From: Longimicrobium sp.
Lineage (GTDB): Bacteria; Gemmatimonadota; Gemmatimonadetes; Longimicrobiales; Longimicrobiaceae
Length of the DNA: 41,587 nucleotides
Assembly (NCBI GenBank): GCA_036377595.1
Contig: DASUYB010000208.1
Coordinates: forward strand, 1-41,587
Direction: 5' to 3'
In this document: piece by piece, positions 12,657 through 40,163 of the stretch
How the letters are laid out: every line of letters starts with the position of its first letter
Position numbering within the stretch: position 1 is the stretch's first letter
Position numbers and translations under genes: made by a program
Notes under the pieces: model-generated
What the model saw: the letters and a program-made list of their open reading frames with translations, nothing else
Told to the model about the DNA's origin: nothing
Databases searched by the model: none

Positions 12657-13258
12657 GTGCCGGAGGGAGTCCAGGGGCGCGCGAGATTGGCCTCGAGGCG
12701 CTCCTTCACCCCGGGCCACTCGTCGTCGAGGATGCTGAAATAGACGGTGTCGCGAAAGACGCCCGCGTCGTTGGCCATGTGCCGGCGCAGGGTCCCCTCC
12801 TCCTTCGCGCCGAGGCGGAGGATCGCGTTGCGCGAGCGCTGGTTGAGCGCGTTGGTCCGCAGCTCCACGCGCACGCATCCCCACGTCTCGAACGCGTGGC
12901 GGAGCATGAGATACTTCGCCTCGGTGTTGACCGGGGTGCGCTGCCACGGCCGCCCGATCCACGTGTACCCGATCTCCACCCGGCGATGCGCGGCCTCGAC
13001 GTTGTGGAAGCGCGTGCTTCCGATCACCCGCCCCGTCGCCGCCTCCGTCGTGGCGAAGGGGAGGGCGATGCCGCGCGCCCGCGCCTCCAGCGCCTCGTCG
13101 ACGTACCGCCGCACGTCGTCCTCGCAGCGCGGGTGGTTCAGCGTCCAGCGCCAGATGTCCTCGTCGTCCGCCACCGCCCACAGCGCGGGCACGTGCTCCG
13201 GCGCGAGCGGCACCAGGCGCACGTGGCGGCCGGCCAGGGTGACGGGCGAGAGATCCAT
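12653..13258 (-). CDS. GNAT acetyltransferase, RimJ/RimL-like
   Basis: A 201-aa GNAT protein. The pattern VTLAGRHVRLVPLAPEHVPAL at the start, VIGSTRFHNVEAAHRRVEIGYTWIGRPWQRTPVNTEAKYL in the middle (acetyl-CoA binding strand and helix) and VELRTNALNQRSRNAILRLGAKEEGTLRRH near the C-terminus is that of RimJ/RimL-type acetyltransferases, which acetylate amino groups of proteins or small molecules. The substrate is unknown. The stop overlaps the PBP4-type gene by four bases. No ribosome site is visible: the ATG at 13258 directly abuts a palindromic repeat that fills the whole gap to the VOC gene. Confidence 0.85.
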
Positions 13259-13260
13259 CG

Positions 13261-13388
13261 GGTGCGAAAGTGCGAGAGTGCGAGGGTGCGAGAGGGAAAT
13301 CCTACGCTGCGCGGGATTGTCGCACCAGCCAGGCTCCGCGGCGGCGGCGATTCACTCTCGCACTTTCGCACTCTCGCACCTTCGCACT
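13261..13388. repeat. Palindromic repeat of 8-bp GTGCGARR units, copy 1
   Basis: The left arm from 13261 carries tandem GTGCGAAA/GTGCGAGA/GTGCGAGG units, and the right arm (13352-13388) is their approximate inverse. The element begins three bases from the acetyltransferase start codon and reaches the VOC stop codon, so it makes up essentially the whole intergenic space. Related copies are at 30607-30699 and 37894-37987, with a half copy at 39092-39122. Confidence 0.8.
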
Positions 13389-13779
13389 AGCTGTTCCGCA
13401 CCTCGCTCATCAGCGCGGCCACGTTGTCCTCGCTGTCGCGGAAGAAGCACATCCACAGCTCGTGGTCCGGCATCCGCGCGATCAGGTGCGGCTCGTCCTC
13501 CACCCGCGCGCCGCCGGCCCGCAGCGTCTCGTACGCGGCGCGGATGTCGGGCACCCTGTAGTAGACGACGGACGCGGCGTGGTCGAACTCCGGCGTCTCC
13601 GGCTTCGCGAGATAGAGCCGCACCGAGCCTGCCTGGAAGAAGGCCGCGTTGGGGATCTCGAACAGGAACGGCAGCCCCAGCACGTCGCGGTAGAACCCGA
13701 TCGCGCGCTGCACGTCGTGCACGTTGATGGCGATCTGCCCCACGTCGGTGATCCCGACCGGCGTCGATGTCCCGTTCAT
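13387..13779 (-). CDS. VOC (glyoxalase/bleomycin resistance/dioxygenase) family protein
   Basis: A 130-aa single VOC protein made of two beta-alpha-beta-beta-beta modules. IAINVHDVQRAIGFYRDVLGLPFLFE opens module one and VVYYRVPDIRAAYETLRAGGARV opens module two; HLIARMPDHELWMCFFRDSEDNVAALMSE ends it. Candidate metal ligands are the Glu in LFEIP, the His in EPHL and the Glu/Asp near the C-terminus; the usual first-strand His is replaced by Asn in IAINV. The start at 13779 has GGAGGAGG upstream. It is divergent from a MarR regulator, a common arrangement in which the regulator controls the VOC gene. The substrate is unknown. Confidence 0.85.
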   Translation of the reverse strand: MNGTSTPVGITDVGQIAINVHDVQRAIGFYRDVLGLPFLFEIPNAAFFQAGSVRLYLAKPETPEFDHAASVVYYRVPDIRAAYETLRAGGARVEDEPHLIARMPDHELWMCFFRDSEDNVAALMSEVRNS

Positions 13780-14318: not shown

Positions 14319-14392
14319 TCTCACGCAGAGGGCGCAGAGGTCGCAGAGAACTAATCGCCGTTCTCTGCGACCTCTGCGTCCTCTGCGTGAGA
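14319..14392. repeat. Palindromic intergenic repeat, CTCACGC family, copy 2
   Basis: Arms of 33 bp (14319-14351 and 14360-14392) are complementary apart from one position, with an eight-base centre. Units are 9 bp (variants of NCGCAGAGG). Outer ends TCTCACGC and GCGTGAGA match the other two family members. It could also act as a terminator for marR. Confidence 0.8.
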
Positions 14393-16916: not shown

Positions 16917-16997
16917 CTCACGCAGGGTTAGCAGAGTCAGCAGAAAACAGCAGAGAAACCGCTGAAGTTGCTGCTGACCCTGCTAACCCTGCGTGAG
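16917..16997. repeat. Palindromic intergenic repeat, CTCACGC family, copy 3
   Basis: Arms of 27 bp (16917-16943, 16971-16997) are complementary except at one position. Units here are 9 bp (GCAGGGTTA, GCAGAGTCA, GCAGAAAAC). The core differs from the other two copies but the outer CTCACGC and GCGTGAG ends are kept. Confidence 0.75.
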
Positions 16998-22204: not shown

Positions 22205-23089
22205 ATGGGAACGAGTCCGCGCCAGCTCATCGTGATGCACTCGAATGGTGCGTTCCGGGAGCTGGTCCGGCGTGTGACCAGCGGGACCTTCGAGTGCACG
22301 TTCCTCCCCGACTGGGAGTCGCTGCGGGCCATCATCCCCGACGCGCCGCCGGCGGCGATGCTGCTGGTGGACCCGTACGCGTCGGGAAGCCGCGACGGGC
22401 TGCAGCTGTCGCAGGCGCTGCGGGCGCTGCTTTGGGAGTTCCCCTCTGCCACGGTGGTGGCGGCGATGGAGCTTCGCCCCGGGCGCTCGCACGACGTGCG
22501 GACGCTGGGCGAATGGGGCGTCACCGACATCATCGCCATCGGCGAGGAGGACACGCAAGAGGCCATCAACCGCCGCCTTCGCTCGGCGCAGGGCCGCCCG
22601 CTGCAGCATCTCCTGCAGCGCTGCCTCCCCTCGAGCGTGTCGGGGCGGTCGCGGACGCTGCTGATGACGGCGGCCGAGGTGGTGTCGATGGGCGGGCGCG
22701 GGCGGGACCTGGCCAAGGCGATGCACCTTTCGGAGCGCACCGTGCTGCGCTGGTCGGAGCGCGCGGCGCTGCCGCCGCCGCGGCGGCTGATGGCGTGGAT
22801 GCGCATTCTCCTCGCCGCGTCGCTGCTGGACGATCCGGGGCGCACCGTGCTCGGCGTGGCCTACGCGTGCGGGTACTCGTCGGACAGCAGCCTGCGGCGC
22901 GCGATGCAGGACTTCCTGGGCACCATCCCCACCACGCTGCGGCGGGAGGGGGCGTTCTCGCGGGCGTCGCGGCGGTTCCTGGACGAGCTGGCGGAGGTGA
23001 AGACCTGGGGGAAGGACACCTGGAAGGAGAAGGCGCTGGAGGAAACCCGGCGAAAAAGGCGGAGACCACGGCGGAGATCGCGGGGCTGA
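22205..23089 (+). CDS. AraC-like regulator with receiver-like N-terminal domain, left flank of NRPS cluster
   Basis: A 294-aa regulator. The first 120 residues resemble a response-regulator-like alpha/beta domain (LIVMHSNGAFRELVRR, AAMLLVDPYA, LRALLWEFPSATVVAAME, LGEWGVTDIIAIGEEDT) but lack the canonical acidic pair, so phosphorylation is doubtful. The C-terminal part (about 150-260) has two helix-turn-helix units, GRDLAKAMHLSERTVLRWSERAALPPPRR and TVLGVAYACGYSSDSSLRRAMQDFLG, the second being the AraC signature. It is a clear paralogue of the protein at 36884-37840: the two bracket the biosynthetic cluster. The C-terminal tail is a run of Arg/Lys unlike the paralogue. Confidence 0.8.
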   Translation: MGTSPRQLIVMHSNGAFRELVRRVTSGTFECTFLPDWESLRAIIPDAPPAAMLLVDPYASGSRDGLQLSQALRALLWEFPSATVVAAMELRPGRSHDVRTLGEWGVTDIIAIGEEDTQEAINRRLRSAQGRPLQHLLQRCLPSSVSGRSRTLLMTAAEVVSMGGRGRDLAKAMHLSERTVLRWSERAALPPPRRLMAWMRILLAASLLDDPGRTVLGVAYACGYSSDSSLRRAMQDFLGTIPTTLRREGAFSRASRRFLDELAEVKTWGKDTWKEKALEETRRKRRRPRRRSRG

Positions 23090-23439
23090 GCGGGGTGCGC
23101 TCGGCCCTGTTTCGTGGCGCGCGCACTCGGACGAGGGCGATCGAGACTGCGCCAGGGACGAGGCGAGTTCGGTCCCCGAGAACGGATCACGTCGTCGAGG
23201 ACCGAGCGTTTCCGCGCGCAACTCCCAGCGTGGAACCTCGAACCCGTCGCGCACGTGCGTGAGGGATGCGCGCCCGAAGGGCCGGGACACCGCCGCGCGT
23301 GCGCCGTCACCGACGATCAGCGCGAATGGTTGGCGCGGCGGGGGCCCGGCGCGGTTGGGCACAGTTGTATCGTGCCCTACCGCGCGCGCAGCCCGGTTTG
23401 GCGTCTCGGCGCCAAACACGCCCGAACCCGACCGTTCTC
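23090..23439. other. Intergenic region between regulator and PPTase, half of it repeat
   Basis: The first part (23090-23256) shows no gene or clear signal. The second part is copy 1 of the structured repeat (23257-23426), ending 13 bases from the stop of the convergent PPTase gene. No simple poly-T terminator was found, so the repeat may take that role. Confidence 0.4.
23257..23426 (+). repeat. Structured ~170-bp repeat element, copy 1 (plus orientation)
   Basis: Begins GCGTGAGGGATGCGCGCCCG and ends ACGCCCGAA. Three stems can be drawn: a long GC stem (GCCGGG...CCGCCGCGC with GCGCGGCGG...CCCGGC) around a variable tip of about 35 bases; a two-part hairpin GCGGT-T-GGGCAC...GTGCCC-T-ACCGC; and GTTTGGCG...CGCCAAAC. 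The same element lies inverted at 25101-25269, and hairpin 2 differs there by compensatory changes. Its shadow reading frames give matching peptide strings only because the DNA is repeated. Confidence 0.8.
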
Positions 23440-24210
23440 TTACCGCTTCTGGGGGATGCCGAGCGGACGGGCGGGGTTCCAGTCGAACAATCGCAGCGTC
23501 CAGCCGCCGCCTTCCACCGCGAGCGCGCCGAGCCAGCCGGGGCCGGGGTCCAGCTCGCGGAGCGTCCACCGCGCGGCCTCGTCGGGGCGGCCGCGGGTGC
23601 AGAGGAGGTGCGCGGGCTCGCCGGGGCGCAGCGTGACGTCGAAGCAGTGGAGCGGCATGGTGAGCCCCTCGCCGATCGCCTTGATGTACGCCTCCTTGCG
23701 CGTCCAGCAGGTGAAGAACGCCGCGTCGCGCTGGTCGTCGGCGATGGTGTCGTAGACCTCGTTCTCGGGCACGGAGAAGAAGCGGCGCGCCACCGCATCG
23801 CGGTCGCCGACGGGGAGCAGCGCCTCGAGGTCCACGCCCAGCTCGCGGCCGCGCGAGACGGCCACCAGGAGCCCGTCCTCGGAGTTGGAGACGTTGAACT
23901 GGAGACCGCCGTCGGCACAGGGGCCGTCGAGGGCGGGCTTGCCGTGCTCGGCCAGGCGGTAGCGGAGGGCCGCGGGGTCGACGCCGAGGTAGCGGGAGAG
24001 GATGCGGCGCTGGATCCCGCGGCCGGCCACGAAGCGGTCGCGGTGCACCTCGAACCTGAAGCGCGCGGCGCGGGTGCGCTCGTCGTCGGAGAGCAGGGCG
24101 TGGTGGAGCGCCAGCTCGGCCGGCGCGGCCGCGAGCGAGGCGCGCCAGACGTGCACCTCGTCGCCCGCCAGCGTCAGGGAGGGCGGCGCGGGCTCCCAGC
24201 GGTCAGGCAT
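23440..24210 (-). CDS. 4'-phosphopantetheinyl transferase, Sfp type
   Basis: A 256-aa PPTase that moves phosphopantetheine from CoA to the conserved Ser of carrier proteins, here the two NRPS PCPs and the free ACP. Motifs: RFVAGRGIQRRILSRYLG (60-76, CoA contact), FNVSNSED (105-112), GVDLE (125-129, Mg-binding Asp127 and Glu129) and CWTRKEAYIKAIGEGL (168-183, catalytic Glu and Lys). The usual FN(L/I)SHS has Asn109 instead of His. The ATG at 24210 overlaps the end of the thioesterase gene by eight bases. It is the last gene of the cluster and converges on the regulator at 22205. Confidence 0.92.
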   Translation of the reverse strand: MPDRWEPAPPSLTLAGDEVHVWRASLAAAPAELALHHALLSDDERTRAARFRFEVHRDRFVAGRGIQRRILSRYLGVDPAALRYRLAEHGKPALDGPCADGGLQFNVSNSEDGLLVAVSRGRELGVDLEALLPVGDRDAVARRFFSVPENEVYDTIADDQRDAAFFTCWTRKEAYIKAIGEGLTMPLHCFDVTLRPGEPAHLLCTRGRPDEAARWTLRELDPGPGWLGALAVEGGGWTLRLFDWNPARPLGIPQKR

Positions 24211-25012
24211 ACATCGGATAGGCGCCGAGCCGCGCCAGCAGCGGCCGCAGCTCGGCGTTCAGCGCGGCCAGCACCCGGGCCTGGTCGCCGATCAGGAAGA
24301 AGTGGTCGCCGGGGAACATGCGGAGCTGGAAGGCGGCGCTGGTCTGCTCGCGCCACGCCTCCACCTCTTCCGGCGCCACCTCCGTGTCGCGCTCGCCGCC
24401 GTACGCGGAGATGGGGACCGCCAGCGGGGGCCCGGGCGTGTAGCGGTACGTCTCGCCGAGCGCGAAGTCGGCGCGGAGCATGGGCGCGATCAGCCCCATG
24501 ATCTCCGGGTTCTGCAGCACCTCTTCCGGCGTGCCGTTGAAGCGCCGCAGCGCGTCCAGGAACTCGGGCTCGGGAAGGTCGTGCAGCGGCGGGTCGCTGA
24601 GCTCCACCTGCGGCGCGGGCCGGCCGCTGGCGAACAGGTGCTCGGGCATGCGGCGGCCGGTGCGGCGCAGGAGGCGCGCCAGCTCGAAGGCCATCAGCCC
24701 GCCGTTGCTGTGCCCGAACAGCGCGAACGGTCGGTCCATGAACGGTGCCAGCTCGGCGCCGAGCTTCTCCGTCAGCTCCGCCATGTCGCTGTACGGCGTC
24801 TCGACCAGGCGGCTCTCGCGGCCGGGGAGCTGCACGGCCAGCAGCTCCACCTCGGGCGGCAGGTGGCGCGCCCACGGCGTGTAGACGGACGCGCTGCCGC
24901 CGGCGAACGGGAAGCAGAACAGCCGCAGCCGCGCGGTCGGCGTGGGGCGCGGGATGACGACCCACGGGCTGGGGCGCGCGGGGCGGCTCTGCGAGGGAGG
25001 CGCGTGAGACAC
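24203..25012 (-). CDS. Type II thioesterase (alpha/beta hydrolase)
   Basis: A 269-aa type II thioesterase of the GrsT/SrfAD family, which frees mis-primed or stalled carrier proteins. FCFPFAGGSASVYTPWARHL (33-50) is the family opening; the nucleophile motif is GHSNGG with Ser102 (GHSMGG is usual); an Asp in YGGERDTEV and His in PGDHFFL near the C-terminus complete the triad. Because the NRPS has no cis thioesterase, this enzyme may also release product. The start is a GTG at 25012, chosen because upstream codons enter the repeat element at 25101; no good ribosome site is visible. It overlaps the PPTase gene by eight bases. Confidence 0.9.
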   Translation of the reverse strand: MSHAPPSQSRPARPSPWVVIPRPTPTARLRLFCFPFAGGSASVYTPWARHLPPEVELLAVQLPGRESRLVETPYSDMAELTEKLGAELAPFMDRPFALFGHSNGGLMAFELARLLRRTGRRMPEHLFASGRPAPQVELSDPPLHDLPEPEFLDALRRFNGTPEEVLQNPEIMGLIAPMLRADFALGETYRYTPGPPLAVPISAYGGERDTEVAPEEVEAWREQTSAAFQLRMFPGDHFFLIGDQARVLAALNAELRPLLARLGAYPMYA

Positions 25013-25100
25013 GATCGGATCCGGACTGCGTCGTCGAAAGCTCGCGATCAGGTGCGTCGCCGGATTGGCCGGCGAAGCGGGAACTGCTTGAACTGCACGA

Positions 25101-25269
25101 TTCGGGCGTGTTTGGCGCTGAGACGCCAAACCGGGCTGCGCGCGCCGTAGGCCACGATACCACCGTGGCCAACGGCGCCGGGCCCCCGCCGCGCCAGGCA
25201 CCCGCGCGAACCTCAACATCCTGGCGCGCGCGGCGGGGTCCCGGCCCTCCGGGCGCGCATCCCTCACGC
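25101..25269 (-). repeat. Structured ~170-bp repeat element, copy 2 (minus orientation)
   Basis: Inverse copy of 23257-23426, with almost identical ends, a different 35-40 base tip, and hairpin 2 reading GCCGT-T-GGCCAC...GTGGCC-T-ACGGC on the minus strand. It sits upstream of the thioesterase start in the direction of transcription, so it would lie in the transcript between the acyl-CoA dehydrogenase and thioesterase coding regions. Confidence 0.8.
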
Positions 25270-29931: not shown

Positions 29932-32900
29932 TCAGTCGCCGCCGGCGCGCTCGGCCAGCAGCCGCTCGGCCTCCTCCTCGCTCAGGCTCTCGAGCCAGGC
30001 CAGCAGCTCGTCGTCGGGCCCGGCGGCGGCGCGGCGCTCGTCCACCAGCGCCGCGATCCCCCGCACCGTGGGGTGGTCGAAGATGACGCCGACGGGGAGC
30101 TCCACCCCCAGCCGCGCGCCGACGCGGGTGAGGATGCGCGTGGCGCGGAGCGAATGGCCGCCCAGGTCGAAGAAGTCGTCGGTGGCGCCCACGCGCTCCA
30201 GCCCCAGCACCTCGCGCCAGATCTCCGCCACCGCCTCTTCGGTCGCCGTCGCGGGCGGCGCGAAGGCGGCCTCGGGGTGCGCGGCGCCGGCGTCGGGCGC
30301 GGGGAGGGCGCGGCGGTCGACCTTGCCGCTGGGGGTCTTCGGCAGCGCGTCGAGCACGGTGAAGGTCGCGGGGATCATCCACGCCGGGAGGCGGCCGGCT
30401 AGGTGCTCGCGCAGCTCGGCCAGAGAGACCGTCCGCCAGTGCGCGGGCGCCACGTACGCGGCCAGCTGGCGCTCGCCGCCGTCCTGGCGCGCGACGACGG
30501 CGGCCTCGCCCACGGACGGGTGCTCGTGCAGCACCGACTCGATCTCCCCCGGCTCCACCCGGAAGCCGCGGATCTTCACCTGGTCGTCGGCGCGGCCCAG
30601 GAACTCGAGTGCGAAAGTGCGAGAGTGCGAAGGTGCGAAAGTGGTTTCGTCGCGAGGTGAGTCGCTTTCGCACTCTCGCACTTTCGCACTCTCGCACTCC
30701 TTCCACCTCGTCCGATCCCCCGTCCGGTACATCCGCGCGCCGGGCGTGGGGGAGAACGGGTCGGGGAGGAAGCGCTCGGCGGTGAGCGCCGGACGGCCCA
30801 GGTAGCCGCGCGAAAGCCCTTCGCCGCCCGCGTACAGCTCGCCGGGGATGCCGGCGGGGATGGGGCGGAGCGCCTGGTCCAGCACGTACGCCGTGGTGTT
30901 GGCGACGGGGCGGCCGATGGGAACGCCCGTGGCGCCGGGGGGGACGGCGCGCACCTCGTGCCAGCTGGTGTAGGTCGTGTTCTCGCTGGGTCCGTAGATG
31001 TTGACCAGCCGCACGGAGGGGCACGCCTCCACCACGCGGCGGAAGGCGGCGGGGTCGGCCGCCTCGCCGCCGGCCAGCAGGTGGCGCAGCGGCGCAAAGG
31101 TCTCGGGCGCCTCGTGCGCCACCTGGTGGAAGAGCGCGCTGGTCAGGAACATCGCGTCGATCCGCCGCTCGCGGATCACCGCGGCCAGACGGTGCGGCGA
31201 GAGGACGTCGTCGCGGTCGACGACGACCAGCGTGCCGCCGTTGGCCAGGGGCGCCCACACCTCCCAGGTGGCCGCGTCGAACGACGGCGCGGCGGTGTGG
31301 CCGATGCGGTCGCCCGGCCGCGGCTGCAGGTAGTCGGCCCCGCGCACCAGCCGCACGAACGCGCGGTGCGTGAGCATGCTCCCCTTGGGCGCGCCGGTGG
31401 AGCCGGAGGTGTAGACGACGTAGGCGACGGCGTCCGAGCCGAGGTCCGGCGCAACTGGTTCGCCCGCGGGCGCATCATCGAGGCGCGCGAGGGAGAGGAC
31501 GGGGCCGTTCCACCCCTCCAGCGAGGCGGGGACGCGGTCGCGCACCACCAGCGCGGCCGCGCCGGAGTCCGCGAGCATGTAGCTCAGGCGCTCCGCCGGA
31601 TACGCGGGATCGAGGGGGACGTACGCGGCGCCCGCCTTGAGCGCGCCGAGCATCCCCATCGCCTCCTCGGGCGAGCGCTCCATCGCCACGGCCACGCGGC
31701 CCTCGGGGCGCACGCCCATCGCCCGCAGCGCGGCGGCGATGCGGTCTCCCGTCACGTCCAGCTCGGCGTAGGTGACGGTGCGCGCGCCGTGCTCGATCGC
31801 CGCCGCCTCGGGCCGCAGCCGCGCCTGCTCGGCGACCAGCGCGTGCAGGGTGGCCTCGCGCGGGTAGTCCGTCGCCGCGCCGGCGAGGGCCAGGACGGCG
31901 CGCTCCTCCTCCGCGGGGAGCATGCGGAGACGGGAGACGCGGGTCGATGGATCGGCGAGCGCGTCGGCCAGCACCGCCTCGAAGTGGCCGATCATCCGCG
32001 CGACGGTGGCCGCGTCGAACAGGTCCTCGGCGAACTCCCAGATCATCACCACCTCGCTCCCCGCGTGCTGGTGGGCGCGGGGGATGACGATGACGTTGAG
32101 GTCGAACTTGGCGGACTCGTTCCCCAGCCCCTCCTCGATCTCAATCTCCGCATCTCCAAGCTCGAGATCGGGATAGGGCGCGTGGTGGAAGTTGAAGGCG
32201 ACCTGGAAGACGGGGAGGTGCCCGCGCGAGCGCTCGGGGTGCACTGCGGCCACGATCTCCGCGAAGGGCACGTCCTGGTGCTGATACGTCTCCACCGCGG
32301 CGGTGCGGACGCGCTCCACCAGCTCCTCGAACGCCGGGTCGCCGGAGAGGTCGGCGCGGATGGGGATGGTGTTCACCACCATGCCGATCAGGTCCTCGCT
32401 CTCCCGCAGCCGCCGCCCCGCGACGCCCGAGCCGACGCAGAAGTCCGTCTCGCCGGTGTAGCGGTGCATCAGCGCCTCGAACGCGGCGAACAGCGTCATG
32501 AACAGCGTGACGCCGTGGCGCCGGCTGAAGGCATCGGCCGCGTCGTACACCGCGCGGGACAGGCGCACGCGGTGGCTGCTGCCGCGGAAGCTCATCTCCG
32601 CCGGGCGCGGCCGGTCCGCCGGGAGCTCGAGGACGGGGGAGACGCCGGCCAGGCGGTGCTTCCACCACTCGAGGTGCGCGCGCGCCTCGTCCGTCTCCAT
32701 CCACGCGCGCTGCCACGCCGCGAAGTCGCCGAACTGCACGGCGGGCTCGGAGAGATCGTGCTCGCGGCCGCGCGCGAAAGCGTCGTAGATGGCCTTCAGC
32801 TCGCGCAGGAACACGCCGAAGCTCCACCCGTCGTGCACCAGGTGCTGCTCGATGGCCAGGAAGACGTGCTCGTCGTCCGCCAGCCGGAACAGCGTCCAGC

Positions 32901-36883: not shown

Positions 36884-37840
36884 ATGTACGTCTCGCGTAT
36901 GACGCGAGACGACACCCGAATGACGTACCTCAACCGGGAACGACAGGATATGCAACCGGTTCTCCGTCCGCTCATCGTGCTGCACTCCGACGCGGTGTTC
37001 AAGGAGCGCCTGCGCCGCATCGGCAGCCAGCGCTTCAAGAGCCAGTTCGTGAACGACTGGGACGGCCTGCGCACGGCGCTAAAGGAAGCGCCGCCCGCCG
37101 CGCTGGTGGTGGTGGACCCGTACACCCACAGCTACGGCGCCGAGGCCGAGCTGGCGCCCGAGCTGCGCTCGCTGCTGTGGGAGTACCCCACCGCCACGGT
37201 GATCGCCGCGCTGGAGGTGCGGCGCCAGCGCGTGCGCGACCTGCGCACGCTGGGCGAGTGGGGGGTGAAGGAGGTGATCGCGCTCGACGAGGAGGACACG
37301 CTCGAGGCCATCAGCCGCCGCCTGCGCGCCGCGCAGGGCCGGCCGCTGCAGAGCCTGCTGGAGCGCTCGCTGCCGGGAACGCTGAGCGGCCGCGCGCGCG
37401 CGCTGCTGATGGCGGCCGCCGAGGTGGTGGCCGAGGGCGGCCACGGGCGCGACCTGGCGGCCAGCCTCCGCCTGTCGGAGCGCACGCTGCTGCGCTGGGC
37501 CGAGCAGGCCGACCTCCCGCCGCCGCGCCGCATCCTGGCGTGGATGCGCGTCCTCCTCGCCTGCGAGCTGCTGGACGACCCCGGCCAGACGGTGCTGAGC
37601 GTGGCCTACACCTGCGGCTACGCCAGCGACAGCTCGCTGCGCCGCGCGGTGCAGGAGTTCACCGGCGTGCTGCTGACCGAGCTGCGGCAGGAGGGCGCCT
37701 TCGCCACCGCGTCGGAGAAGTTCCTGGCCGAGCTGGAGGACACTCGCGAGAGCGGCCGCGCCCGCCGCAAGGCCGAGCGCGCGGCGGCCCGTGCCGCCGC
37801 CGTGGCGGCCGCCACCGCCGCCGCCGGCGCGCCGAACTGA
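36884..37840 (+). CDS. AraC-like regulator with receiver-like N-terminal domain, right flank of NRPS cluster
   Basis: A 318-aa paralogue of the regulator at 22205-23089. Matching blocks include LIVLHSDAVFKERLRR, ALVVVDPYTHS, LRSLLWEYPTATVIAALEV, LGEWGVKEVIALDEEDTLEAISRRLRAAQGRPLQ, GRDLAASLRLSERTLLRWAEQADLPPPRR and the AraC motif TVLSVAYTCGYASDSSLRRAVQEF. The receiver-like domain again lacks a canonical phosphorylation set. The C-terminus ends in an Arg/Ala-rich helix. The start is uncertain: ATG at 36884 has GGGAGAG upstream; ATG at 36950 (MQPVLRP) matches the paralogue better, and would leave a 23-bp palindrome at 36889-36911 in the leader. It is divergent from the cluster and is its probable pathway regulator. 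Confidence 0.8.
   Translation: MYVSRMTRDDTRMTYLNRERQDMQPVLRPLIVLHSDAVFKERLRRIGSQRFKSQFVNDWDGLRTALKEAPPAALVVVDPYTHSYGAEAELAPELRSLLWEYPTATVIAALEVRRQRVRDLRTLGEWGVKEVIALDEEDTLEAISRRLRAAQGRPLQSLLERSLPGTLSGRARALLMAAAEVVAEGGHGRDLAASLRLSERTLLRWAEQADLPPPRRILAWMRVLLACELLDDPGQTVLSVAYTCGYASDSSLRRAVQEFTGVLLTELRQEGAFATASEKFLAELEDTRESGRARRKAERAAARAAAVAAATAAAGAPN
36889..36911. promoter_or_regulatory. Perfect palindrome at the start of the cluster regulator
   Basis: CGTCTCGCGT (36889-36898) and ACGCGAGACG (36902-36911) are exact inverted arms around ATG. It is either an operator or RNA hairpin in the leader (if translation begins at 36950) or part of the N-terminal coding sequence (if it begins at 36884). 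Confidence 0.5.
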
Positions 37841-37862: not shown

Positions 37863-37884
37863 AGCCCGGGCCGCGGCCCGGGCT
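37863..37884 (+). terminator. Terminator of the cluster regulator gene
   Basis: A perfect 22-bp palindrome, AGCCCGGGCC and its complement, followed by TTCGTCGTT, 22 bases after the regulator stop. Confidence 0.7.
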
Positions 37885-37893
37885 TTCGTCGTT

Positions 37894-37987
37894 GAGTGCG
37901 AAAGTGCGAGGGTGCGAGGGTGCGAGGGTGCGAAAGTGCGCCAGGTTCAACGCACTCTCGCACTTTCGCACCTTCGCACTCACGCAC
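37894..37987. repeat. Palindromic repeat of 8-bp GTGCGARR units, copy 3
   Basis: A left arm of tandem GTGCGAAA/GTGCGAGG units (37896-37940) faces a right arm of inverse units (37951-37987), with about 10 bases between. It lies just after the regulator terminator. Same family as the insertion inside the NRPS gene. Confidence 0.8.
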
Positions 37988-37998
37988 CGGAAAAGAGA

Positions 37999-38442: not shown

Positions 38443-39087
38443 ATGGCCAGGAAGTACGGGATCAGGGAAGTGTTTCCCACGCTGCAGGGCGAGGGCGCGC
38501 AGGCGGGGTCGCCCGCGGTGTTCCTGCGCTTCGCGGGGTGCAACCTGGGCTACGACGTGTGCCCCTGGTGCGACACCGACTGGGTGAAGGCGGTCTACAG
38601 CGAGGACGTGGACGGCACCCTCGCGCTGGTCCGTGCCGCGGCGGAGGAGGGGTTCGGCGGCGAGCGGCCGGGCCTTCTCCTCGTGGCCACCGGCGGCGAG
38701 CCCAGCCTCCAGCTCGACCGGCCGCTCTCCGACGCGCTGCGGGCGCGGGGATACCGCATCTCCATGGAATCCAACGGCTCGCGCCCGGTGGACCGCTCGC
38801 TGGTGGACTGGCTCACCATCAGCCCCAAGCAGCCCGAGTTCGCGCAGAAGGAGGGCGACGAGCTGAAGCTGCTGTTCAGCGGCACCGCCGCGCTCGGCAT
38901 CACCCCCGACGTGGCCGCGGTGCGCCGCATCGCCGCGGGAACGCGCTTCGGCCACTACTTCCTGCAGCCGATCGACATCCCCGCGCACGGCGGGCCGAAC
39001 TACGAAGAGACGGTGCGCGCGGTGATGGAGCTCGGTCCGCCGTGGCGCCTGTCGGTGCAGACGCACAAGGTGATGGGGATCCCCTGA
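38443..39087 (+). CDS. queE: 7-carboxy-7-deazaguanine synthase (QueE-like radical SAM)
   Basis: A 214-aa radical SAM enzyme of the QueE family, which contracts 6-carboxy-tetrahydropterin to 7-carboxy-7-deazaguanine on the way to queuosine. IREVFPTLQGEGAQAGSPAVFLRFAGCNL is the family opening. The cluster Cys are in CNLGYDVCPWCDTDW, i.e. C-x6-C-x2-C, where many radical SAM enzymes have C-x3-C-x2-C. LLVATGGEPSLQ is the GGE SAM-binding motif, followed by SMESNGSRPV and the C-terminal FLQPIDIPAHGGPN and SVQTHKVMGIP. ATG at 38443 has AAGGA close upstream; a GTG at 38431 is possible. No other queuosine genes lie nearby. Confidence 0.88.
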   Translation: MARKYGIREVFPTLQGEGAQAGSPAVFLRFAGCNLGYDVCPWCDTDWVKAVYSEDVDGTLALVRAAAEEGFGGERPGLLLVATGGEPSLQLDRPLSDALRARGYRISMESNGSRPVDRSLVDWLTISPKQPEFAQKEGDELKLLFSGTAALGITPDVAAVRRIAAGTRFGHYFLQPIDIPAHGGPNYEETVRAVMELGPPWRLSVQTHKVMGIP

Positions 39088-39091
39088 GCCG

Positions 39092-39122
39092 AAGTGCGTG
39101 AGTGCGTGAGTGCGGGAGTGCG
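39092..39122. repeat. GTGCGTGA/GTGCGGGA half repeat upstream of the HDAC gene
   Basis: Tandem 8-bp units (AGTGCGTG, AGTGCGTG, AGTGCGGG, AGTGCGAC) related to one arm of the GTGCGARR palindromes, immediately after the queE stop. It supplies the only canonical start codon (GTG at 39102) for the following gene. Confidence 0.6.
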
Positions 39123-40163
39123 ACGGAGCCCGTCGTCGCTTCCGCCTGCTGTCCCCTGTACCCTGTTCCCTGTCCCCTGAAGGCGTTCTACACGGACCGC
39201 TTCGTCCTTCCCCTTCCGCCGGGGCACCGCTTCCCGATGGTGAAGTACCGCCGGGTGCGCGAGCGCTGCCTGGAGGAGGGGATCATCGCGCCCGCGGACC
39301 TGGCCGAGCCGCCGGCCGCGGCGTGGGACGAGCTGGCCCTGGCGCACGACCGCGCCTACCTCGACGCGGTACGCGAGGGCGCGCTCCCGCCGCTGGCCCA
39401 GCGCCGCATCGGCTTTCCCTGGAGCCCGGAGATGGTGGAGCGCTCGCGCCGCTCCGCGGGGGCCACCATCGCCGCCTCGCGCGTCGCCCTGGCCGAGGCG
39501 GCGGAGCGGGGATGGGGCGTCGCCGCCAACCTCGCGGGCGGCACGCACCACGCCGGCCCCGACCACGGCGAGGGCTTCTGCGTGTTCAACGACGCCGCCG
39601 TCGCCGCGCGCGTCCTCCAGCGCGAGGGCGTGGTCCGCCGCATCGCCATCATCGACTGCGACGTGCACCAGGGGAACGGCACCGCCGCCATCTTCGCGCG
39701 CGACCCCACCGTCTTCACCTTCTCCATCCACGGCGCGCGCAACTTCCCCTTCCGCAAGGAGCGCGGCTCGCTCGACGTCGATCTCCCCGACGGCGCGGAG
39801 GACGACGCCTTCCTGGCCGCGCTGGAGCTCCATCTTCCCCACGTGCTCGACGACTTCCGCCCCGAGCTGGCCATCTACCTGGCCGGCGCGGACCCGTGGC
39901 GCGACGACCGCTTCGGCAGACTGGGGATGACCAAGGAAGGGCTGGCCGAGCGCGACCGCTACGTCCTCCACCTCCTCCGCGACGCCGGCGTCCCCACGGC
40001 GATCGCGATGGCCGGCGGCTACGCGCGCGACACCGAGGACACCGTCGACATCCACGTCACGACTCTTCGCATCGCCGCGGCGATGCACCGGCAGAACGGC
40101 AGGTCTCACACGGAGCCACCGTCGCCCTCGGGGCAAACCCGCCCCCGGGTGGACCTCCGCTGA
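39102..40163 (+). CDS. Histone deacetylase family (AcuC/class IV-like) deacetylase
   Basis: A zinc amidohydrolase of the arginase/deacetylase fold, acting on acetyl-lysine or acetyl-polyamines. AFYTDRFVLPLPPGHRFPM is the family start; NLAGGTHHAGPDHGEGFCVFNDAAVAA carries the tandem active-site His; IIDCDVHQGNGTAAIF has zinc-binding Asp/His; LAGADPWRDDRFGRLGMT holds the third zinc Asp; AGGYA is near the end. The match to class IV/AcuC-like enzymes is good. The start is problematic: family similarity begins at KAFYTDR (39180), preceded by repeat DNA, and the only in-frame ATG/GTG/TTG upstream is GTG 39102 inside a repeat. A CTG at 39177 is another possibility. The last 20 residues are non-conserved. 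Confidence 0.85.
   Translation: MRECGSATEPVVASACCPLYPVPCPLKAFYTDRFVLPLPPGHRFPMVKYRRVRERCLEEGIIAPADLAEPPAAAWDELALAHDRAYLDAVREGALPPLAQRRIGFPWSPEMVERSRRSAGATIAASRVALAEAAERGWGVAANLAGGTHHAGPDHGEGFCVFNDAAVAARVLQREGVVRRIAIIDCDVHQGNGTAAIFARDPTVFTFSIHGARNFPFRKERGSLDVDLPDGAEDDAFLAALELHLPHVLDDFRPELAIYLAGADPWRDDRFGRLGMTKEGLAERDRYVLHLLRDAGVPTAIAMAGGYARDTEDTVDIHVTTLRIAAAMHRQNGRSHTEPPSPSGQTRPRVDLR
39148..39179. repeat. Short tandem CCCTGTNC repeat before the HDAC domain
   Basis: Degenerate units (CTGTCCCCTGTACC, CTGTTCC, CTGTCCCCTG) run up to the first conserved codon of the deacetylase. The shape is that of a low-complexity intergenic repeat and not of coding sequence. Confidence 0.5.

Follow-up and report, generated by a model that had tools for sequence, protein, structure and literature searches.

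The locus considered here raises the question of what the two related intergenic sequences are that flank a thioesterase (TE) gene and a phosphopantetheinyl transferase (PPTase) gene in inverted orientation, and that differ from each other by base changes which keep their stems paired. The first-pass annotation of the window, by which we mean the whole 41,587-nucleotide stretch of Longimicrobium sp. DNA that was analyzed, had read these changes as selection on structure and offered three options: a noncoding RNA family, a transposable palindrome recognized as hairpin DNA, or an mRNA processing element. Both copies lie where they had been placed, with covariance-model ends at 23257-23423 on the plus strand and 25104-25269 on the minus strand, and a repeat search of the window recovers them as a long imperfect inverted pair with arms that are 86-91% complementary. 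The pairings described for the central hairpin are also correct, including both double substitutions and the internal T/T. The features of the pair and its neighbors are as follows.

23257..23423, plus strand: element copy 1, 167 nt, the best match to covariance model R1 (181 bits); its 5' end is exact, because the flanks of other copies are unrelated.
23257..23261, plus strand: outer stem 1, 5' side GCGTG, with the 3' side CACGC at 23417-23421 (alignment A1, columns 1-5/164-168).
23263..23271, plus strand: 5' side of stem 2, which has a fixed A/G mismatch (166/167 copies); the 3' side is at 23386-23394.
23272..23282, plus strand: arm 3, the small hairpin GCCC-GAA-GGGC (alignment A1).
23283..23348, plus strand: arm 4, a long hairpin with a covarying stem and a hypervariable tip at 23299-23332.
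23349..23385, plus strand: arm 5, the central hairpin of the earlier description, with the T/T mismatch, the loop AGTTGTATC and CTAC (GTAG on the minus strand).
23396..23417, plus strand: arm 6, the third hairpin of the earlier description, GTTTGGCG...CGCCAAAC; the final base of this arm doubles as the opening base of stem 1 in the consensus.
23424..23437, plus strand: 3' tail of copy 1, consensus RAAYCCYGCNGTTC.
25104..25269, minus strand: element copy 2, 166 nt, an R1 match of 164 bits.
25090..25103, minus strand: 3' tail of copy 2.
23440..24210, minus strand: neighboring PPTase gene (PF01648), outside the element.
24203..25012, minus strand: neighboring TE gene (PF00975), outside the element.

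The pair is part of a much larger set, as the covariance search proposed in the earlier annotation reveals. Model R1, built from 30 copies, finds 67 copies in the same genome (G000), in which a pattern search finds 65 places and a search with copy 1 as the query gives 40 scored matches. Among 21 genomes of the same family, R1 matches in 12 (67 copies in G000, 58 in G011, at least 136 in G014, 40 in G005, 25 in G017, 12 in G009, 11 in G004, and 1-4 in each of five further genomes) and has no match in the other nine. Only six of 298 genomes of the phylum match, all from the same family, and the exact pattern, searched across 84,980 species from which genomes near our own were possibly left out, matches only two MAGs named Gemmatimonadetes. 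No copy was found in plasmids, the exact pattern was not found in viral contigs, and nothing in the window scores above the gathering cut-off of any Rfam 15 family. Several contig ends in G000 fall within or near copies (C54:144, C120:144, and C67:37); the assembly has probably been broken at the repeat, which makes the number of copies given for this genome a lower bound. The element is a dispersed intergenic repeat family, confined to one bacterial family among the 298 phylum genomes searched.

All 167 copies examined fall outside genes, as called with a simple script based on codon usage. The gaps occupied are 109 tandem, 25 convergent, and 15 divergent, a distribution that differs from that of gaps lacking the element (p 1e-4), with divergent-gene gaps under-used relative to the roughly 35 expected by length. 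The 318 neighboring genes are ordinary and diverse and include unrelated housekeeping genes; they give only small clusters of ordinary families, with no recurrent neighbor that could be a 'master' gene. The location of the window's pair around TE and PPTase is incidental. A pyrimidine directly precedes the element in 163 of 166 copies, and a purine follows CACGCCC in 159 of 166. We also considered orientation relative to the leading strand of replication, using the flanks of 148 copies in G000, G011, G014, and G017 and with a GC3 control; GC skew on the element strand is positive for 115 of the 148, but it fades within about 3 kb and is a local effect. In the long-flank subset the element sits on the locally G-rich strand, with 57 of 71 positive at 500-1000 bases upstream.

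Several other repeats occur near the element or elsewhere in the window. A conserved upstream block, AGGGGAGGGGAGAACTCAG, was dropped as a candidate part of it, being a separate abundant repeat (CCCCTCCCCCGCTGCGCAGGGGAGGGGAGAACTCAG) found at 139 places in the same genome with two or fewer mismatches (L228-L257) and often situated a fixed distance upstream of the G000 copies (e.g. L002, L004, and L015). The window also contains 8-base tandem repeats of the GTGCGAAA/GTGCGAGA type at 13258-13395, 30597-30713, 37884-37995, and 39082-39134, several as inverted pairs, and repeats of the same kind abut the 3' end of most element copies in G017. Near-perfect intergenic hairpins of the type TCTCACGCAGAGG...CCTCTGCGTGAGA / CTCACGCAGGGTTAGCAG... 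are present at 14319-14392 and 16917-16997. Finally, positions 22404-22995 and 37149-37740 are paralogous regions 14.7 kb apart with 74-77% identical DNA, the first coding for a regulator that has an AraC-type domain (HTH_18).

All copies of the element fit one multi-branched fold of 52 pairs in six helices, with the consensus order of the outer stem GCGTG/CACGC, stem 2 with its A/G mismatch, a GCCC-NNN-GGGC hairpin, and arms 4, 5, and 6; the 3' tail of about 14 bases is weakly conserved, and no extra pairing was found between the 5' and 3' flanks. Across 84 aligned copies from 12 genomes, double substitutions are present at 38 of the 52 pairs and 98.0% of cells are paired, compared with a mean of 87.0% after shuffling. 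These copies exceed all 500 of 500 shuffles on every measure, and the fold is therefore not a product of chance. Much the same holds for a second set (47 copies, some of them shared with the first) when fitted to this model. Because the alignments of both sets were fitted to the model, a tree-based test was added, and on a tree of 167 copies there are 123 same-branch two-sided pair changes against 10.6 under a null that preserves the number of substitutions per branch, an excess of about 12-fold. Our own R-scape-like tests, whose power is limited by conservation, return 5-6 column pairs at E<0.05, all of them within the structure. The branched shape is preserved by matched base changes, and the selection on structure first proposed from two copies is upheld by the many others that covary beyond the tree-based null.

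The arms differ in how they vary. The third hairpin (arm 6), reported as unchanged, is indeed so between the window's two copies. In the family as a whole, however, no arm varies more: double changes occur at all eight arm 6 pairs, and one pair is divided almost evenly between C-G (42) and U-A (41). Pairs in arm 5 swap among C-G, G-C, and A-U, and tips of arm 4 share only about 57-61% identity from copy to copy, where the remainder of the element shares 87-89%. The arm 5 loop has the consensus RGYNGTATC, CTAC is present in 157 of 167 copies, and the two mismatches are fixed, T/T in 160 and A/G in 166 of the 167. Such constancy of the T·T and A·G mismatches and of the loop suggests that a protein recognizes the element in a strand-specific manner. 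We note that in some copies (L147-L163 in G014, and L067 and L076 in G009) the variable tip of arm 4 contains an arm-5-like loop (CACAGGGGTATCGTG; CACAGCAGTACCGTG), as though by duplication or exchange of arms.

Covariation is the classical sign of a structured RNA, and the element could on this account be a small RNA in its own right or, within a transcript, a leader or 3'-UTR processing element. RNA folds accept G·U pairs and reject A·C. The 167 copies provide 8,105 pair cells (with the first and the last arm 6 pair omitted), of which 7,915 are Watson-Crick, 40 are G·T (0.49%), 29 are A·C (0.36%), and 121 are others. In contrast, G·U accounts for 6.5% and A·C for 0% in 55 tRNAs of these genomes, with the proviso that ARAGORN may favor standard pairing; the corresponding values for three RNase P RNAs, also of these genomes and in part from misaligned regions, are 6.2% and 2.6%. 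With G·T as rare as A·C, neither strand of the element shows an RNA signature, although the low G·T could stem partly from selection for very stable GC-rich stems. Copies in tandem gene gaps show a slight sense excess (65 sense vs 47 antisense), which together with the depletion between divergent genes is in keeping with a transcribed element, but the bias is not significant (p 0.11) and the 47 are antisense to both neighbors. No conserved sequence precedes GCGTG among recent copies, whose flanks are unrelated up to the first base and so leave no room for a conserved promoter; there is no T-tract beyond the 3' end, and the neighboring genes are diverse and unrelated. The scarcity of G·T, the lack of significant sense bias, and the unrelated 5' flanks favor a fold at the level of DNA, and we regard a structured RNA as unlikely. 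Of the three options raised at the outset, the transposable palindrome acting as hairpin DNA fits best, and a noncoding RNA and an mRNA processing element are both disfavored.

Evidence for movement comes from recent copies and from comparison of sites among genomes. G014 and G017 contain copies that are 98-99% identical with unrelated 5' flanks. At the locus studied here, G009, G011, G014, G015, and G017 all retain the order regulator - PPTase - thioesterase - acyl-CoA dehydrogenase, but the element is present as both copies in G011, as the left copy only in G017, and not at all in G009, G014, and G015. Filled and empty sites around a kept gene order indicate that copies came and went and that the resident genes are not cargo; a composite transposon carrying TE and PPTase is ruled out by the three genomes that have the same order with neither copy.

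Other sites are shared. At least 14 of 63 copies in our genome occupy the same gap in the same orientation in G011, or 20 if one-sided evidence is counted, and these shared-site copies hold their structure even though the intergenic flanks have diverged beyond alignment. This is consistent with a model in which each copy is a host DNA site, with a role in nucleoid organization, gyrase binding, replication, or insulation as proposed for BIMEs, and is kept by selection; the greater identity of the body (87-88%) than of the tips (about 60%) and an orientation that tracks the local G-rich strand could be understood in the same way. However, hardly any sites are shared with G017 or G014, nine of the 21 family genomes do without the element, empty sites occur at conserved gene order, and the arm sequences at shared sites are genome-specific, and such a role for each copy seems to us improbable. 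Shared-site copies of our genome and G011 are scarcely more alike than unrelated ones (tip identity 0.60 vs 0.57, and body 0.88 vs 0.87), and the arm 6 loop is GCGTCT in 39 of 62 copies in our genome, with none of the GCGCCT type, whereas in G011 it is of the GCGCCT type in 38 of 51 and GCGTCT in two, shared sites included. Genome-specific loops at shared sites imply either that each genome homogenizes its copies or that the copies at these sites have been replaced. Such homogenization or replacement might also be taken to mean that the compensatory changes are mutational, arising by template switching or gene conversion between arms or copies with no selection on the fold. Correction of one arm by another would remove internal mismatches, and yet T/T persists in 160 of 167 copies and A/G in 166, which argues against purely mutational compensation and leaves this the least probable of the explanations considered.

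A dispersed, non-coding, high-copy sequence with a short terminal inverted repeat (GCGTG/CACGC) could be an ordinary MITE of an insertion sequence whose DDE transposase acts on double-stranded DNA. However, the repeat is only 5 bp long, no target-site duplication is visible by eye around the near-identical recent copies, and an internal branched fold under selection with fixed mismatches is unexpected for the ends of a double-strand-acting transposase; we consider an ordinary MITE quite improbable. In size (100-200 bp) and in being non-coding, intergenic, foldable, and non-autonomous the element can be likened, by description, to ERIC, RU-2, and MITEs (PMC2229807, PMC2759123), with the distinction that its branched-fold covariation with fixed mismatches is demonstrated here.

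The closest known kind is REP/REPIN. Like REPs, REPINs, and BIMEs (PMC3733652, PMC3116915), the element consists of many dispersed intergenic imperfect palindromes with conserved stem mismatches, found in tandem and convergent gene gaps rather than divergent ones. REPs include GTAG- and CGTC-tagged types (PMC3733652, PMC3116915), and arm 5 likewise begins with GTAG when its minus strand is read, a resemblance that is suggestive but weak; the GTAG of a REP is at the 5' foot of the hairpin, whereas in the element it lies at the T/T mismatch, embedded in a longer arm (157/167, minus strand). TnpA-REP (RAYT), which moves REPs, reads the GTAG tag, stem irregularities, and the loop on single-stranded DNA (PMC8266576), and the mismatches (T/T and A/G) and loop that are fixed in the element resemble the bulge and loop features read by this enzyme. 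A REP, however, is a 20-40 bp hairpin, as a single or two inverted units, and the element is 167 nt, multi-branched, and composed of six helices. G·T pairing, cited by Di Nocera et al. as support for an RNA function of REPs, is scarce in it. No RAYT (NF047646) scores above the curated cut-off in any of the 21 family genomes. We also considered the integron attC, likewise a folded single-strand site, which IntI recombines in cassette arrays; the element copies are dispersed singly.

The ends of IS200/IS605 elements are a further parallel, being mismatch hairpins recognized as single-stranded DNA by Y1 transposases with no target duplication. Genes for Y1 transposases occur in 13 of the 21 family genomes, but not in step with the element; G005, with its 40 copies, has none. 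Those Y1 proteins that were examined belong to the IS200 type and bear Y---Q--HH, a signature of subclass 1.2 (PMC6006769). Unlike IS200/IS605, the element has no copy adjoining any of the Y1 genes examined, the nearest being kilobases away, nor was an autonomous Y1 element with the same ends found near them. RAYT and the Y1 enzymes were accordingly set aside as the mobilizer. By analogy, the element may resemble REPs or IS200-type ends in how it works, and we assign it to neither.

We consider it somewhat more probable than not that the pair represents copies of a new non-autonomous mobile DNA repeat family recognized by its structure. The family, its fold and covariation, its dispersal and turnover, and the scarcity of G·T are well supported by the comparisons above; that single-stranded DNA is the acting form and that mobilization occurs in trans we infer. 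The recognition unit would be a branched hairpin of one DNA strand, comprising the outer stem, the small hairpin, and three larger arms, and forming as single-stranded DNA or as a cruciform. A trans-acting enzyme, probably working on the folded single strand in the manner of TnpA-REP, would bind the mismatch and loop features and copy or move the element between genes, and purifying selection for mobility together with homogenization among copies would keep the arms paired. Against a mobile DNA repeat stand the results of the search for a mobilizer (G005 without Y1, RAYT in 0/21, and no Y1-adjacent copy), the structure kept at shared sites despite diverged flanks, which also fits a per-site function, and the part that selection for stable GC-rich stems perhaps plays in the low G·T.

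A mobile repeat of this kind points to a mobilizing system in a poorly studied phylum, and the exact 5' ends, recent copies, and taxonomic boundary make its enzyme searchable. In usual practice covariation is near-proof of a structured RNA, but this element covaries equally strongly with a DNA-like signature, and counts of G·U against A·C as well as strand bias deserve checking before such repeats are filed as RNAs. More tentatively, and with appreciable doubt, we raise the possibility that a multi-branched single-stranded DNA fold could be the heritable unit for a new class of mobilizing enzyme, with copies evolving in concert at fixed sites. If so, this would be a structured-DNA family that covaries strongly enough to be mistaken for a noncoding RNA.
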